Virus record (IMG/VR): IMGVR_UViG_3300037247_000335
Coordinates: 1 to 21,840 of that record
Length of the DNA: 21,840 nt
DNA from: a virus
Direction: 5' to 3' (one strand)
Positions within the stretch are counted from its first letter, which is position 1. The number at the start of each line of letters is the position of its first letter. Positions 6,782 through 15,397 of the stretch are shown here, one piece after another. A program made the position numbers and the translations under genes. The notes under the pieces were generated by a model, which was not told the origin of the DNA, searched no databases, and was given only the letters and a program-made list of their open reading frames with translations.

Positions 6782-8302
6782 TTATCTCCTTTTCCTGATT
6801 GGTTCTGTCAATATCTCTATAGAATCAATTTCTAAAGTAGAACCGTTTATATTTGATACTCCAAAATTAAAATGTCTATCTTTTATGCCTTTCTCAAACT
6901 TAACCCGACGTTCGTGTATAGTGCTTGCTGTGGTTGGTGTTATAAAGTAAGTCCGTGGATTTATTTCATCTCCAACACTAAATAATTGAATATCACCGTC
7001 TGAACGGAAACTTAAATATACGTCTCTAAGTCTTTGTATTTCAGTTGTGTATATATCAATAGCACCTGTTTTATAACTTGCGTCTATTTGTGTGCCGTTA
7101 TCATTATCTCCGCCAGCTTCATAAATCCCGGATGAATTAGCGTATAGATATTTTCCGTTAAATAAACACATGCTGTTAAACCCGAAATTAGTATATTCAC
7201 TTATAGCAAAATTTCTTGTATTAGTCACTATAATTCTTATGTCATTTGTAACATTAATACTTGGAGCATGTATACTTAAGCCTGTTTCCTGTGATATCAT
7301 TGATATACCCGGTAATAATAATATAGCATCTCCTGATATAATAGGAAGACCGGGGATCGCCATACTAAAAGCCAGTGGTAATAAGCTTATAAAAACATCT
7401 GCCCCGGCAATAATACCTATTCCTTCTTGTAATAAGCCAAGTGTTAATTCGTCAGGTATTACAATAGTATCTGATATTAATATAGCAGTATTCAGACCAC
7501 CTGATAAAGATAAAACAGAGGCTGAGAATATAACATCAACGCCAGTAAGGGTTGGAGTGGGCATTGCTCCTGTTAATGATAAATTAACCACCTCTACGGT
7601 TATATCAGGAGGCACTAAATCCAATCTACCATTTATATTATTTGTTTCAATACCAGATATAAATCCTTCTATAACACTTACGTCTTCACTTGTCTTTACC
7701 GTTGATGTGAACTGACCTGATTGAAGGTATAACTTATTATCTATATTTCCGCCCCATGGAGTATTGGTACCGTCATATGATATACCAGAAGGTTTATCTA
7801 TAACACTTACGTCTTCACTTGTCTTTACCGTTGATGTGAACTGACCTGATTGAAGGTATAGTTTATCGAAAACCTGCCCGGTAAATGGAGTATTGGTACC
7901 GTCATATGATATACCAGTTGGTACACTATCAATTCCCCCAATGAATTCACTTGTCTTTAACGTTGATGTGAACTGACCGCTTTGAAGGTATAGCCTATCG
8001 CCTACAAATCCGCACCATGGAGTATTAGTCCCATCCCATGATATACCAGATGGGGCGGTTTCAATTGCCGTAATTAATTGGCTTGTTTTTAAAGTACTGG
8101 TAAATTGTCCACTTTGCAGGTAAAGCTTAGCATCGGTATTACCACCCCAAGGAGTATTGGTTCCATCCCACGATATACCATAAGGAACAGCGTCAATTCC
8201 CCCAACGCTTTGACTGGTTTTAATAGTTGACGTGAATTGCCCACTTTGCAGGTATAGTTTATCATCGTTATATCCAATCCAAGGGGTATCGTTAAGAGCC
8301 AT
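6782..8302 (-). CDS. Tail fibre-like protein with five N-terminal repeat modules and a conserved phage C-terminal domain, 506 aa
   Basis: I chose ATG 8302 (MALNDTPWIG) rather than the ATG at 8317. A GGAG site lies 9 nt before 8302, and the paralog at 9519-11129 begins with the same MAL-DTPWIG. Residues 1 to about 215 are five modules of about 43 residues with the pattern GIS(W/Y)DGTNTPW...KLYLQSGQFTST(L/V)KTS, which looks like short propeller blades or a beta-solenoid. Residues about 225-345 are degenerate beta-stalk repeats (IVIPDELTLGLLQ type). The last about 140 residues, from NFAISEYTNFGFNSM to IEILTEP, match a C-terminal domain I recognise from many phage tail proteins of unassigned function. 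The gene overlaps the glycosyltransferase gene by 11 nt. A host-contact or tail-tip role is inferred from architecture and position. The C-terminal domain is absent from the paralog. Confidence 0.8.
   Translation of the reverse strand: MALNDTPWIGYNDDKLYLQSGQFTSTIKTSQSVGGIDAVPYGISWDGTNTPWGGNTDAKLYLQSGQFTSTLKTSQLITAIETAPSGISWDGTNTPWCGFVGDRLYLQSGQFTSTLKTSEFIGGIDSVPTGISYDGTNTPFTGQVFDKLYLQSGQFTSTVKTSEDVSVIDKPSGISYDGTNTPWGGNIDNKLYLQSGQFTSTVKTSEDVSVIEGFISGIETNNINGRLDLVPPDITVEVVNLSLTGAMPTPTLTGVDVIFSASVLSLSGGLNTAILISDTIVIPDELTLGLLQEGIGIIAGADVFISLLPLAFSMAIPGLPIISGDAILLLPGISMISQETGLSIHAPSINVTNDIRIIVTNTRNFAISEYTNFGFNSMCLFNGKYLYANSSGIYEAGGDNDNGTQIDASYKTGAIDIYTTEIQRLRDVYLSFRSDGDIQLFSVGDEINPRTYFITPTTASTIHERRVKFEKGIKDRHFNFGVSNINGSTLEIDSIEILTEPIRKRR
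7668..7860. repeat. 64-bp perfect direct repeat within the fibre-like gene
   Basis: Positions 7668-7731 and 7797-7860 are identical over 64 bp, with a period of 129 bp (43 codons), matching one protein module. The flanks differ at the first base on each side, and further copies nearby are more diverged. Confidence 0.9.
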
Positions 8303-8942
8303 TTGTGTATACTCCATGAAATGCCCGTATTACTTCGTGCATTTCAAGTTCATTAAAATGTTGACATCTGTAATTGTAATGAGTAAAAATTTCAAAACCG
8401 TTTTCGGTTGCTCTTTCGCAAAAACTTATATCATTGCCTTTATTTACGGTTCCATCTGTATTTAGCTTTCTGGTAAAGGCTCCCTTTCTCATTTCAGGGT
8501 GGTCAAATACCCTACGTGCAATAAGTATACATCCAGTGCCTACTGCATCAACTTTTTGTAATCCTTGTTTTATCGGATATTCTTTATAGGCGTTTTCATC
8601 CTTGATATATTGGTATGCGTTTTCGTACCAAGGACGTTCGCCTTTGATCTTGTCGGTGAAATGATAAATAGGAGTCGGGCATCCTATGATATCCTTGTCA
8701 AGCTCGATTAAATCTAAGGGGTTGTTCATGGGCGGATTATCTGCATCAATATTTAACCAGTAATCATAATTACCACTGATAAAATCATTGACTATATGAT
8801 GTAGATTGTTTTCATATGGACTATGAGTAGGCACGATAATATTACAATCATACCTACGGTCGCTTAATAATCTCGTCGCTGTTATGAGAATTAGCTTATG
8901 TATCCAGCCTGTATTAGGAAATGATATTAATACTTTTTTCAT
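8292..8942 (-). CDS. GT-A fold glycosyltransferase, 216 aa
   Basis: The N-terminus (KKVLISFPNTGWIHKLI) and following 60 residues fit the nucleotide-sugar-binding half of a GT-A (GT2-like) enzyme. The metal-binding DxD motif is DAD at residues 66-68, within WLNIDADNPPMNNPLDL. A later GTGCILIARRVF segment and GNDISFCERATENGFEIF match the acceptor-side and (E/D)D.(D/S)FC blocks of these enzymes. Expected activity is transfer of a sugar from an activated donor; donor and acceptor cannot be read from sequence. The start overlaps the upstream stop as TAATG, and its own stop lies 11 nt inside the next fibre gene, so it is translationally tied to both. Its position between two fibre paralogs suggests it modifies virion or host-surface material. 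It lacks any membrane segment, so it is probably cytoplasmic. Confidence 0.85.
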   Translation of the reverse strand: MKKVLISFPNTGWIHKLILITATRLLSDRRYDCNIIVPTHSPYENNLHHIVNDFISGNYDYWLNIDADNPPMNNPLDLIELDKDIIGCPTPIYHFTDKIKGERPWYENAYQYIKDENAYKEYPIKQGLQKVDAVGTGCILIARRVFDHPEMRKGAFTRKLNTDGTVNKGNDISFCERATENGFEIFTHYNYRCQHFNELEMHEVIRAFHGVYTNGS

Positions 8943-9518: not shown

Positions 9519-11129
9519 TTAAATTATTCTAGTTTTATAACTCGTCATAAAAGCCCTAAGTGTTAGCATCGGCAAGGGTTTTGAAAAAGTCAGGTTATCG
9601 GAATTATACCCGGAAGCTGATAGAGATAGCAAGGGTAAAGTTCTATTAAATGTCATGGGTGAAGAAAATACCATATTCGCACTTAGCGTCATCATGGGTA
9701 GTGTACTGGCAAAACTATGGAGGCCGCCTGTGTTAAACACTGCATTTAATTCCAGCATTGGCAAGGAGTTCGTAAACGTAATGGCGTTTCCTCCGGTTAA
9801 GGTCGCACTCAACGTCATTAACGGTAAAGACTTGACAAGACTTCCTATATTTGACTGTGATAAAGTTGCAGATAACGTCAGTATTGGCAGTACATGACTT
9901 ACCTTAGTACCCATTCTAACTGTTAGCGTCATCATAGGTAGTGTACTTGCTGAATTATAGGTTTCACCATTAATCAGTGTTGCGCTTAGCTCAAGCATCG
10001 GCAACTTACTACTGAAATTCATTGTAGATGCTATTAATATTATTGGCGTTGGTTGTGATAATGCCAGAGCTTGTTCATCTGGTAAAACAGAAAAAACATA
10101 TGTTGGTGATGGTTGTGCTAATCCAAGTATTAATTCATTCGGCGTTATTGTTATGTCAGTCGGTATAACAATCGTTGGAGTTTCTAGAGCTAATCCTAGA
10201 GGTAATTCGTTAGGAGTTACTATAACATCTATGTTTATAGTTGGTGCTGGTAATGCCGTAGAAAGAGTGAGTTCGTTTGGTGTTACTGTTACGTTCCCCG
10301 GAATTAATATAGTTGGGGTTTCTGCCGTTGTTGTAAGAGTAAGAGCCGCTCCAATAACCACTGTCTCGTAATTCGTAATACTTGCCGGGGATAAGACGGC
10401 TACTGTGAGGGTTAATTCATTTGGAGTTACAGTTATATCTCCCCCAACGCCTAGTCTGGCGTCTATATCATTAGTGGATATATCTTCGATTGCGAGTTCT
10501 ATGCCGCTTACATCCTCAGATGTTTTCAGCGTAGAAGTAAACTGGCCTGATTGCAAGTATAGTTTATCGGCTTGCGTTCCTGCCCACGGAGTATTGGTGC
10601 CATCCCATGATATGCCAGTTGTGGAGTTTTCAACGGATAAAACATCCTCAGATGTTTTCAGCGTAGAAGTAAACTGGCCTGATTGCAAGTATAGCTTGTT
10701 TGAATTACACCATGGAGTATTGGTGCCATCGTATGATATTTCATTTACATTGCTTGACACACCGCTTACATCCTCAGATGTTTTCAGCGTAGAAGTAAAC
10801 TGGCCTGATTGCAAGTATAGTTTATCGGCTTGCGTTCCTGCCCACGGAGTATTGGTGCCATCCCATGATATACCAGAAGTAAACTGGTCGATAACACCTA
10901 TAGCTTCACTATCTTTAACAGTTGTTGTAAATTGTCCTGAGACAAGATATAACTTGTCGTTGGTATTGCCAATAACTGGCGTATTAGTGCCGTCCCAATC
11001 TATTCCTTTTGGAAAAATTTCATATGAAGTAGTAAGTTCACTTGTTTTTAACGTAGACGTAAACTGTCCAGACGTAAGGTATAGCTTATCACCATCACTG
11101 CCAATCCAAGGGGTATCTGTTAAAGCCAT
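9519..11129 (-). CDS. Repeat-built tail fibre-like protein, 536 aa, paralog of the 6782-8302 product
   Basis: The start at 11129 follows AAAGGA and lies 11 nt past the previous stop. The protein is almost wholly repeats of three kinds. Residues 1 to about 215 are five modules (TPWAGTQADKLYLQSG, TSTLKTSEDVSG, GISWDGTN) nearly identical to those in the 6782-8302 protein. Residues about 225-350 are copies of a 25-residue unit around (V/I)T(V/I)TPNELTL followed by PTI.I. Residues about 355-536 are seven or more copies of a unit of about 27 residues around LPM(L/M)TLSA. The last two kinds resemble beta-stalk repeats of phage fibres. It lacks the C-terminal NFAISEYTNF domain of its paralog, ending in a basic SYKTRII. 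Two modules are encoded by a perfect 110-bp DNA duplication. Adhesion or fibre function is inferred; the repeats themselves are plain to see. Confidence 0.8.
   Translation of the reverse strand: MALTDTPWIGSDGDKLYLTSGQFTSTLKTSELTTSYEIFPKGIDWDGTNTPVIGNTNDKLYLVSGQFTTTVKDSEAIGVIDQFTSGISWDGTNTPWAGTQADKLYLQSGQFTSTLKTSEDVSGVSSNVNEISYDGTNTPWCNSNKLYLQSGQFTSTLKTSEDVLSVENSTTGISWDGTNTPWAGTQADKLYLQSGQFTSTLKTSEDVSGIELAIEDISTNDIDARLGVGGDITVTPNELTLTVAVLSPASITNYETVVIGAALTLTTTAETPTILIPGNVTVTPNELTLSTALPAPTINIDVIVTPNELPLGLALETPTIVIPTDITITPNELILGLAQPSPTYVFSVLPDEQALALSQPTPIILIASTMNFSSKLPMLELSATLINGETYNSASTLPMMTLTVRMGTKVSHVLPILTLSATLSQSNIGSLVKSLPLMTLSATLTGGNAITFTNSLPMLELNAVFNTGGLHSFASTLPMMTLSANMVFSSPMTFNRTLPLLSLSASGYNSDNLTFSKPLPMLTLRAFMTSYKTRII
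10504..10871. repeat. 110-bp perfect direct repeat within the fibre-like gene
   Basis: Positions 10504-10613 and 10762-10871 are identical over 110 bp, with a spacing of 258 bp (86 codons, two modules). A third partial copy at 10642-10694 shares 53 bp. The repeats are in-frame and code for the five-module region. Confidence 0.9.
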
Positions 11130-13166: not shown

Positions 13167-14081
13167 TTACTCCCATAAAGTTGTAATGTATTGAGATAAC
13201 CCATTTTTATCCCGGAAAAGCCCGGCTCCAAATCTTTTATTTGGAATGTTAAACTTACCGTCTGTTATATTGATAAATCTTCCAGAATTGCCGCCAATAC
13301 AAATTCCTCCGTCAGATGCCCACATAACAACCGTTCCAGAAAGTCCTTCGCCGATCTTACTGGCATCTTTAATCTTTACGTCTGAACCTTCAATACATCC
13401 ATAACTGGCAAAACTCCTTAAAGTATAGTCTTCTACGACTGCGCCTTGTATGAAATAAGTATTTTGCCTATTAATATCGCCAATACAAATCCAAATGCCG
13501 TCATCTACGGCTTGCATCATAGTTATTTCATTTTCAAACTGGATGAAATTATATCGTCTATCTACTTGATTGAAGTAATTTACGTCTGTATACCAAATGG
13601 TTTCGTTTTTCGCAATATAAATCCTGCCGTTGAAATATTCTATGTGTTGGCCGGGTAATGGAGCGAACTTGTAATCCTCGGTAGGGTCTGTAAATAAAGT
13701 ATTGACTCCGTTTTCAATGTACCCTATTACTGCCGGGTTGGTGTAGTAATACTTGTCGTTTACTTCAACATAGCTCATATGATAGTTCGACACACCTGTT
13801 CTTAATGTCGAACTCGTATAATCTTCGTGGAGTCTTTTTAGAACCCCATTATCTACATAGAAACACATCTTATTATCTCCGTACATACTATGCCCTTTAA
13901 TTGTTGTTACTTTCTTCGTGTTTCCGGCTCTCCGGGAAGGACGACCTTTATCAGAAATATCTATATTATAAGCATATACCAGTTGGTGTTGTTCCAGTCT
14001 TGCAGGGTCTATAACATTATTTACGCCAGACACCGTGCCTATTTTAATAGTGTTAGATGATATATCTAAATTACGGGTCAT
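13167..14081 (-). CDS. Propeller-like conserved phage virion protein, 304 aa
   Basis: The start overlaps the upstream gene by 11 nt and follows GGAG at 8 nt. The order of motifs is that of a common phage tail-region protein: GVNNVIDPARLEQHQLVYAYN near residues 19-39, SDKGRPSRRAGNTKKV, LRTGVSNYHMSYVEVNDKYYY near 93-115, PLPGQHIEYFNGRIYIAKN, FIQFENEITMMQAVDDGIWI, and MWASDGGICIGGNSGRFINIT near 255-275. Repeated aromatic beta strands with (Y/F)(F/Y).(G/N)(R/G)(I/L)Y patterns fit a beta-propeller. Homologs I recall usually have an extra middle segment, so this copy may be on the short side. It opens the tail and adhesion module. A structural role in the tail or tail-head joint is inferred; no catalytic motif is visible. 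Confidence 0.75.
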   Translation of the reverse strand: MTRNLDISSNTIKIGTVSGVNNVIDPARLEQHQLVYAYNIDISDKGRPSRRAGNTKKVTTIKGHSMYGDNKMCFYVDNGVLKRLHEDYTSSTLRTGVSNYHMSYVEVNDKYYYTNPAVIGYIENGVNTLFTDPTEDYKFAPLPGQHIEYFNGRIYIAKNETIWYTDVNYFNQVDRRYNFIQFENEITMMQAVDDGIWICIGDINRQNTYFIQGAVVEDYTLRSFASYGCIEGSDVKIKDASKIGEGLSGTVVMWASDGGICIGGNSGRFINITDGKFNIPNKRFGAGLFRDKNGLSQYITTLWE

Positions 14082-14283
14082 TGATGGTCTCCACTCTTAT
14101 TCCTATTTCTTCATTACAATGTGGACAGGATACAAATATATGGGCTTCGTTTTCTTCTACGGCGGATTGCATTCCTTCCCAGCATTTCCCACATAATTTA
14201 ATAGGAACCCCCGCAAGCTCTTTTTCCAGTCCTTCTTCGTCCGGTAAAAAGGGCGCATGGCAGAGATTACACTTAGTTGCCAT
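14071..14283 (-). CDS. Small zinc-ribbon-like protein with three CxxC motifs, 70 aa
   Basis: I chose ATG 14283 (MATKCNLCHAPF), which lies 1 nt after the stop of the HNH gene. A longer frame from 14379 would run about 95 nt through the HNH gene. Cysteine pairs occur at residues 5/8 (CNLC), 31/34 (CGKC) and 53/56 (CPHC), enough for one zinc ribbon plus a further pair. The ribosome site is weak (GGA), in keeping with translational coupling. The protein is acidic between the fingers. It may bind nucleic acid or be an assembly factor. It ends 11 nt inside the propeller-like gene. Metal binding is a fair inference; function is unknown. Confidence 0.65.
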   Translation of the reverse strand: MATKCNLCHAPFLPDEEGLEKELAGVPIKLCGKCWEGMQSAVEENEAHIFVSCPHCNEEIGIRVETINDP

Positions 14284-14284
14284 A

Positions 14285-14686
14285 TTATAATTCCTTTGCA
14301 TTGGATAGTTCCTTTTTCTTTTTTCGTCTTCTCTGTCTTGCGTGGAGCTTTGCGTGACAGTTGAAGCATAAGCATACACACTTTTTCAACTCTTTAATGA
14401 GAGTTGCGGGGGCATGTCTACCCCGTGATACCACACTGATAGAAAACTCTTTATTACTTGGAATCTTATGATGTGCACAAAGACAATCATAGTTTTTCTC
14501 AGAACATCGAGTACATCCATTCTTTCTAAACTCGGCAACAAGCTTACCAGCTTCAATTGAATAATCCTTGCTTTTGTTTGTTACTAATAGTCTCTGGCGG
14601 TTTCTATATTCGTTATCAGTCCAATATTTATTTTTCCGCCATTTCCTTTGATATTCCCGTTGCTTTTCTTTGTCTTTATAAGCCAT
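14285..14686 (-). CDS. HNH endonuclease, 133 aa
   Basis: The N-terminus MAYKDKEKQREYQRKW is typical of small phage HNH proteins and is basic, suited to DNA binding. The nuclease core has C58/C61 (CTRC), H72-H73 (CAHHK), and a second metal-site cluster CFNCH at 107-111 followed by H115. This is the treble-clef ßßa-metal fold arrangement, with the HH as the catalytic start and the CxxC pairs holding structural zinc. The C-terminus is a run of Arg and Lys. The ATG lies only 8 nt after the tRNA and has no Shine-Dalgarno; the TATAAT at the tRNA edge is described as a finding. It may be a free-standing homing nuclease or serve DNA packaging; being far from a terminase in this window favours the former. 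Confidence 0.85.
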   Translation of the reverse strand: MAYKDKEKQREYQRKWRKNKYWTDNEYRNRQRLLVTNKSKDYSIEAGKLVAEFRKNGCTRCSEKNYDCLCAHHKIPSNKEFSISVVSRGRHAPATLIKELKKCVCLCFNCHAKLHARQRRRKKKKELSNAKEL

Positions 14687-14694
14687 ATATATTA

Positions 14695-14767
14695 TAACGG
14701 CGGCAGGAATCGAACCTGCTCATATCAGGGATATGAACCCTGCGACTTCCCATTTGTCCACGCCGTA
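14695..14767 (-). tRNA. tRNA with CAU anticodon, initiator-like (tRNA-Met)
   Basis: A 73-nt cloverleaf can be folded by hand. The acceptor arm TACGGCG pairs with CGCCGTT in six of seven positions, leaving T1-T72 unpaired. The D-arm is GAC/GTC with A14, G18, G19 and A21 in place. The anticodon arm is CAGGG / CCCTG with loop TTCATAT. The T-arm is GCAGG / CCTGC with loop TTCGATT. The discriminator is A and no CCA is encoded. Unpaired 1:72, A11:U24 and three G:C pairs at 29-31:39-41 are the three bacterial initiator features. The gene starts 1 nt after the stop of the adaptor gene and ends 8 nt before the HNH start. Elongator Met or a lysidine-modified Ile tRNA remain possible. Confidence 0.85.
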
Positions 14768-15397
14768 TTAAGTGTTTAGCACGGAGGCCGCCGGGCGTTC
14801 TCCGAATCTTTTAGTAAACCTTACCAGATGTTCTTTTGCTTTTCCTTTATCCAATGTTTCTGAGTCCTGTTTTGAATAAGCCCGGTGTAGCATCCAGTCT
14901 ACTAATCCTAAATGATATTGTATATCGAGTTCCGGGGATACCGTGAGCTTATCAGCAAGTAACATTGGTGTTAATGGTAGCCTTGATATCATAAAGTTCA
15001 AGGTAGCATCTACTGTCGGAATTTTATACAACGTAATCTTATTTGTATCATCCGGGAGCCAACTCCTTACTGTTCCGGTATCCATTGCCCAGTTTGGATA
15101 TGTAGCGTCAAGAACCCGGTGTGACGTCTTAACTAAGGGTTCGGTACTGCTAGACAGCTTAGCACGCTTTATTAACAGTATTTTTTCGTCTATGCTGTAA
15201 GTAGCAGTACCGGAGATAACATTAATAACGGCTAAAGCCGATGTTTGATCAATTATAAGGTTAGCACGTATACAGGCTTCGTTTTCTGCATCATTGGCGT
15301 ATTCAGTCCACTCAAGAAGACTCCATAGAAGGTCTGGTTTATCTATTACTTCATCTGCCTGATTTTGTCCTGAAATTATTAATTCATTTAGATTCAT
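14768..15397 (-). CDS. Phage adaptor / head-tail connector protein, 209 aa
   Basis: Motif order matches the phage adaptor family: WSLLEWTEYANDAENEACIRANLIID near residues 25-50, TATYSIDEKILLIKRAKLSS near 64-83, a YPNWAMDTGTVRSWLPDD block, DATLNFMISRLPLTPM, and ELDIQYHLGLVDWMLHRAYSKQDSETLD near 160-187. Such proteins form the ring below the portal that joins head and tail. The start has AAGGAG overlapping the upstream stop. The gene is 9 nt from a second, more diverged adaptor-like gene, which suggests two stacked rings. The family is clear; ring position is inferred. Confidence 0.8.
   Translation of the reverse strand: MNLNELIISGQNQADEVIDKPDLLWSLLEWTEYANDAENEACIRANLIIDQTSALAVINVISGTATYSIDEKILLIKRAKLSSSTEPLVKTSHRVLDATYPNWAMDTGTVRSWLPDDTNKITLYKIPTVDATLNFMISRLPLTPMLLADKLTVSPELDIQYHLGLVDWMLHRAYSKQDSETLDKGKAKEHLVRFTKRFGERPAASVLNT

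Follow-up and report, generated by a model that had tools for sequence, protein, structure and literature searches.

The only tRNA gene in the window, meaning the whole 21,840-base virus record IMGVR_UViG_3300037247_000335, is a tRNA-Met(CAU) on the minus strand (14695-14767) that is very probably of the initiator type, an identity well supported by its sequence. Among related viruses the start-tRNA signature at this site is kept unusually strictly, which suggests that the virus may bring a spare 'start' tRNA of its own. Our best reading, which we hold with moderate confidence, is that this is a working phage initiator tRNA made together with the late mRNA, and that it would most likely keep late initiation going once the host's own initiator is scarce or has been destroyed.

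A CAU tRNA had been proposed at this position from inspection of the letters, and it proved to be real: ARAGORN called exactly one tRNA in the window, and Rfam RF00005 matched it with 51.9 bits (E 1e-8). The cloverleaf is the minimum-energy RNA fold (-25.5 kcal/mol), with a pairing probability of 0 for 1:72 and 0.84 for 2:71. When 20 nt of flanking sequence were included on each side a different fold won, and 1:72 was unpaired there as well. The preliminary description had named a best fold with 1:72 paired as something that would count against it, and no such fold was found. Every feature that it listed is present in the window copy, namely an unpaired 1:72 (T-T), A11:U24, three G:C pairs at the base of the anticodon stem, the anticodon loop TTCATAT and a variable loop of 6 nt. 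Position 1 (U, 14767) is unpaired with U72 (14696), forming a formylation-type acceptor end, while G29, G30 and G31 (14738-14740) pair with C41, C40 and C39, respectively (14728-14730), as the '3GC' pairs. The loop UUCAUAU (14731-14737) carries the anticodon CAU at 14733-14735, compared with CUCAUAA in the bacterial tRNA-fMet used as a reference panel. The discriminator is A73 (14695) and CCA is not encoded. Within the D arm C12:G23 is combined with A13xA22. Position 2:71 is A:U, versus the G:C listed among the formylation determinants (1x72, G2:C71, C3:G70 and A11:U24; PMC7949028), and C3:G70 is present.

The major genes of the window all lie on the minus strand and encode a virion of the short-tailed, SU10-like kind, with portal, capsid and two adaptor proteins. 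PHROG and Pfam assignments place the tRNA between head-tail genes, which bears out its earlier placement amid capsid-to-tail genes. Directly upstream, the SU10-type head-tail adaptor gene (14768-15397, minus strand; Pfam PF24175 E 1e-17, PHROG 399) ends in a TAA stop codon (14768-14770) that abuts tRNA position 1 with a gap of 0 nt. On the other side an 8-nt spacer, UAAUAUAU (14687-14694, minus strand), separates the tRNA 3' end from the start codon of an HNH endonuclease ORF (14285-14686, minus strand; PHROG 3106 E 5.5e-18, and relatives), and no Shine-Dalgarno-like sequence is present in this spacer. Then follow, on the same strand, a small multi-cysteine protein (CNLC...CGKC; 14071-14301), the start of which was placed from homologues and the weak Pfam match of which is below cut-off, and a head-closure Hc3-like gene (13167-14081; PHROG 8040 E 2.7e-37) that serves as the downstream anchor of the site. 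The multi-cysteine protein is conserved in relatives between the tRNA/HNH position and the head-closure gene. Neither a promoter nor a terminator of the tRNA's own was found above chance. Elsewhere in the window, two virion-region proteins (6782-8317 and 9519-11129) start with several near-identical repeats having a motif like DGTNTPW.G...DKLYLQSGQFTSTLKTSE.

For classification we used the CAU tRNAs of E. coli K-12 and of about 60 genomes from the Bacillota and Armatimonadota, a panel limited to E. coli and these two main phyla. Clustering without the diagnostic positions gave 28 Ile2, 20 elongator Met and 36 fMet tRNAs, the last number after three phage-like tRNAs had been taken out, and position matrices built on these 84 bacterial tRNAs were correct in 84/84 leave-one-out assignments. 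The window tRNA scored -93.7 bits as fMet, -124.4 as elongator Met and -147.6 as Ile2. The Met/fMet/Ile2 classification recommended in the preliminary description thus came out as fMet, with a lead of 31 bits over elongator Met and 54 over Ile2, and the tRNA was still assigned to fMet, by 8 bits, when the diagnostic positions were removed. Because its fMet score lies below the whole bacterial fMet range of the panel (-72 to -15), the window tRNA appears to be a divergent initiator type.

Such divergence could also belong to an elongator tRNA-Met in which the 1:72 pairing was lost by accident. Acceptor-stem letters alone lean towards elongator Met by 6 bits, and a similar loop, UUCAUAC, is found in 12 of the 20 bacterial elongator Met tRNAs of the panel and in none of its bacterial fMet tRNAs. 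We nevertheless consider an elongator very unlikely, and it was rejected as an identity, since the whole-tRNA score is 31 bits worse than for fMet, neither A11:U24 nor an unpaired 1:72 occurs in any bacterial elongator Met of the panel (0/20 each), and 1:72 is unpaired in all ten members of the virus group described below, in five base combinations. A tRNA-Ile2, in which CAU is modified to lysidine so as to read AUA, would have the same CAU anticodon. This identity is exceedingly improbable and was likewise rejected, given a score 54 bits below that for fMet and the unpaired 1:72 and A11:U24 of the window tRNA, compared with a paired 1:72 in 28/28 and A11:U24 in 0/28 bacterial Ile2 tRNAs of the panel.

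Seventeen related viral contigs were found via the adaptor protein (75-86% identity). Nine of these relatives hold an intact CAU tRNA (L002, L004, L008-L012, L027 and L028) and six have none (L001, L003, L005, L006, L007 and L029). L025 and L026 contain a decayed copy with an affected anticodon loop (L025:5631-5706, L026:2539-2614); its anticodon stem-loop is short of one base and its acceptor strand has one extra, with the remaining cloverleaf and CCA retained. When the ten intact tRNAs, window included, were aligned, 1:72 was a standard pair in none of them (UU in four, AA in three, and AC, CU and CA), and the remaining 19 stem pairs were paired in 189 of 190 cells, twelve being changed on both sides. 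A11:U24 is present in 9/10. A 1:72 mismatch that is kept while its bases change is what a requirement for formylation predicts, and we take it as good evidence that selection maintains an initiator-type acceptor end in the group tRNAs. The tRNA of L002 (L002:3103-3179) is the sole one in the group with a host-like D arm, GAGCAG...TAGCTC, and its 30:40 position is also mismatched (U:U); it may have recombined with a different initiator tRNA.

The tRNA gene is dispensable in its group, being absent or decayed in seven distinct relatives, and as such is not essential. Within the adaptor tree, the deep forks of which are weak, intact tRNAs occur in most branches, making loss the simpler history. 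The six absences and the decayed loop of L025/L026, along with the odd loop, 6-nt variable loop, A2:U71 and lack of CCA in the window copy, would be in keeping with a passenger, a once-acquired phage tRNA that is now decaying and is held in place by tight packing against the adaptor gene. This seems quite unlikely, because the ten intact copies keep a full cloverleaf with covariation and a strict 1:72 mismatch, unlike what neutral decay would leave.

The tRNA is joined to or overlaps the adaptor stop codon (gap 0 or -2 nt) in nine of the ten intact copies, window included. In a set of 97 initiator-type tRNAs from other phages, only 4 have a stop codon no more than 1 nt upstream. Positions 1-2 of the tRNA are the AG of the adaptor TAG stop in L002, L008, L010 and L012, and the exception is L028, where the tRNA is located about 145 nt downstream. 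This arrangement could indicate that the cloverleaf is mainly an RNA-processing element, in which an RNase P cut behind or inside the adaptor stop codon would separate or destabilise the adaptor and downstream mRNAs; in the four relatives with a shared AG, tRNA maturation would remove the stop codon. CAU, A11:U24 and an unpaired 1:72 are not needed for such an element, yet all or nearly all copies retain them, which makes it distinctly unlikely as the main role, and processing may add to the tRNA function rather than replace it. Initiator-type tRNAs beginning with the AG of an upstream TAG were also seen in two unrelated phages (L062:3377-3451 and L078:1892-1963 (minus strand)), where the genes ending in that TAG are a 430-aa unknown ORF and a 529-aa ribonucleotide reductase, respectively.

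An HNH ORF is found at the site in every relative with an absent or decayed tRNA (seven distinct), and in the tRNA-less relatives it sits at the adaptor stop codon. Intact tRNAs accompany 3 of 10 HNH carriers versus 7/7 members without HNH (Fisher 0.01, with related phages counted as independent). The position just after the tRNA seems to attract insertions, and the arrival of an endonuclease gene there may oust the tRNA. In L012 the tRNA is immediately followed by a 129-aa ORF (L012:4581-4970), nuclease-like by eye, in the place that HNH takes in other relatives.

The preliminary description had taken three features together as the argument for an initiator. For this virus group the evidence comes from the acceptor end and A11:U24. 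The three G:C pairs (29-31:39-41) are not shared by the family, as they are present in the window copy only and absent in 9/9 relatives. Position 30:40 is G:C in nine of the ten group tRNAs. Searching viral sequences with a first D-arm pattern, in which the acceptor end and anticodon stem were left free, yielded 49 stretches and 36 distinct tRNAs, group included; this pattern fixes A11:U24, which is therefore no evidence in that set. Within it 1:72 is unpaired in 28/36, versus 2/126 other phage tRNAs (Fisher 6e-22), G30:C40 is found in 32/36 and all three G:C pairs in 2/36. A second, host-like D-arm pattern gave an independent sample of 73 distinct phage tRNAs, with 1:72 unpaired in 52 and U:A in 18 more, G30:C40 in 70 and all three G:C pairs in 19. 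With this same pattern the three pairs were present in 95 of 106 bacterial genomes versus the 19/73 phage tRNAs (Fisher 9e-19; hosts unmatched), and 31:39 was changed in 13/73 phage tRNAs versus 1/106 bacterial genomes. Initiator-type tRNAs on viral contigs thus usually keep G30:C40, and often do not keep 29:41 or 31:39. Structures of the ribosome show 16S A1339 and G1338 in contact with pairs 30:40 and 29:41, A1339 being the base that grips 30:40 (PMC11497404).

A29:U41 was found in 10 of the 59 Armatimonadota genomes with a match (G051, G056, G066, G068, G071, G172, G176, G186, G196 and G204), which shows that bacteria, too, can depart from the three-G:C rule. This weakens the notion that phages alone have lost G29:C41, and because the hosts are unmatched part of the difference at 29:41 may reflect hosts. 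A host effect would explain the 31:39 changes in phages less easily.

No relatives of the adaptor were found in genome contigs of 84,980 bacterial and archaeal species, nor was there a DNA match to INPHARED. The nearest cultured capsids, about 41% identical, are those of Rhizobium phages. The phage tRNA pattern had four matches in bacterial genomes, three of them a single 98-100% identical contig (L091, L092 and L093) in two bacterial MAGs and one archaeal MAG named Clostridia, Bacilli and Methanobrevibacter, a single mobile element or phage that ended up in three genome bins. With so few matches, three of them one contig, no host is indicated. Capture of a host tRNA by integration was considered and rejected, as the tRNA lies in a virion operon and the ten larger ORFs checked in a 65.7-kb relative included no integrase. 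The primase/helicase of that relative (L180:226-2910) appears to hold an intein, judging from residues about 299-668, which match terminase families and a LAGLIDADG domain. It also encodes a 4751-aa polyvalent protein (L179:498-14753) with pyrophosphatase, LPD1 and helicase domains.

If the tRNA is a working initiator, its position and strand imply that it would be transcribed within the late polycistronic message. Cleavage by RNase P would free its 5' end precisely after the stop codon of the adaptor gene, and host enzymes would trim the 3' end and add CCA, a step proposed because the gene encodes none. Going by known determinants, the host MetRS would recognise CAU and A73 and charge the tRNA, C3:G70, A11:U24 and the open 1:72 end would allow its formylation by the host formyltransferase, and the formylated phage tRNA would enter the ribosomal P site. 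Counted against initiator function are A:U at 2:71, the acceptor-stem preference for elongator Met (6 bits) and a score below that of bacterial fMet. With its changed anticodon stem-loop the tRNA could be less easily attacked by nucleases that cleave host tRNA-fMet in this region. For enteric VapC the cleavage site in fMet is between A38 and C39 (PMC4105405); position 38 is U in the window tRNA, C in L004 and A in most relatives. Phage tRNA-Tyr and tRNA-Lys have been shown to rescue phage growth after host tRNA cleavage (PMC11555353). The preliminary description had put forward two possible roles, a boost to initiation late in infection and replacement of a cleaved host tRNA; the altered anticodon stem-loop would be compatible with the latter. 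A wider proposal, tentative and on balance unlikely, is that there is a widespread class of phage initiators in which the formylation signature is kept and 3GC has been relaxed to the middle pair by selection on the anticodon stem-loop, either to escape initiator-cutting nucleases or to win ribosomes under phage-altered initiation, and that in the window virus group the tRNA is freed from late mRNA when a virion gene is cut at its stop codon or inside it.

The reason for tRNA genes in phages has long been debated, mostly from studies of elongator tRNAs. In the 65.7-kb record of L009 the tRNA at the adaptor site is the sole tRNA. Where an initiator is the only tRNA of a phage codon compensation cannot explain it, and a lone initiator therefore isolates the other hypotheses, initiator supply or evasion of defences that cut initiators. 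The phage set additionally provides natural variants of the '3GC' rule, in which G30:C40 stays and its neighbours change.

Phage tRNA-fMet is already known elsewhere, and the window tRNA is a variant. With bacterial tRNA-fMet it shares CAU, A73, an unpaired 1:72, C3:G70, A11:U24, G29-G31:C39-C41 and its classifier group, whereas it differs in U:U at 1:72, A2:U71, UUCAUAU in place of CUCAUAA, C12:G23 with A13xA22, the 6-nt variable loop and the lack of CCA. Annotated tRNA-fMet genes are present in Caulobacter phage CcrSC and in phiLM21-like prophages, often as the only tRNA of the latter (PMC12429752). These are likewise phage-borne initiator-type CAU tRNAs with A11:U24, but they belong to other phage families, and in the two records compared (CcrSC and phiLM21) no virion-gene stop codon is joined to the tRNA. 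BLAST with the L008 tRNA hit 284 INPHARED records, mostly labelled tRNA-Met among the matches listed. The neighbouring endonuclease recalls SegB of T6 (PMC13096335), where a free-standing endonuclease gene likewise adjoins a phage tRNA, although the window neighbour is an HNH gene whose presence goes with tRNA loss, and no amplification was seen. Phage tRNAs have been proposed to resist anticodon nucleases, with tRNA-fMet generally avoided where VapC targets tRNA-fMet (PMC10264068), and T5 tRNA-Tyr defeats retron-Eco7 (PMC11555353). Those cases resemble the window tRNA in having an anticodon stem-loop altered from the usual bacterial form, yet they are elongator tRNAs, whereas the window tRNA is of the initiator type. 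Mycoplasmas have unconventional initiator tRNAs (AU/GC/GU; Ayyub 2018, cited in PMC10568206). These are chromosomal and bacterial, and the window copy differs from them in having all three G:C pairs, but in their relaxed 29:41 and 31:39 and retained G30:C40 they are like most of the phage copies.
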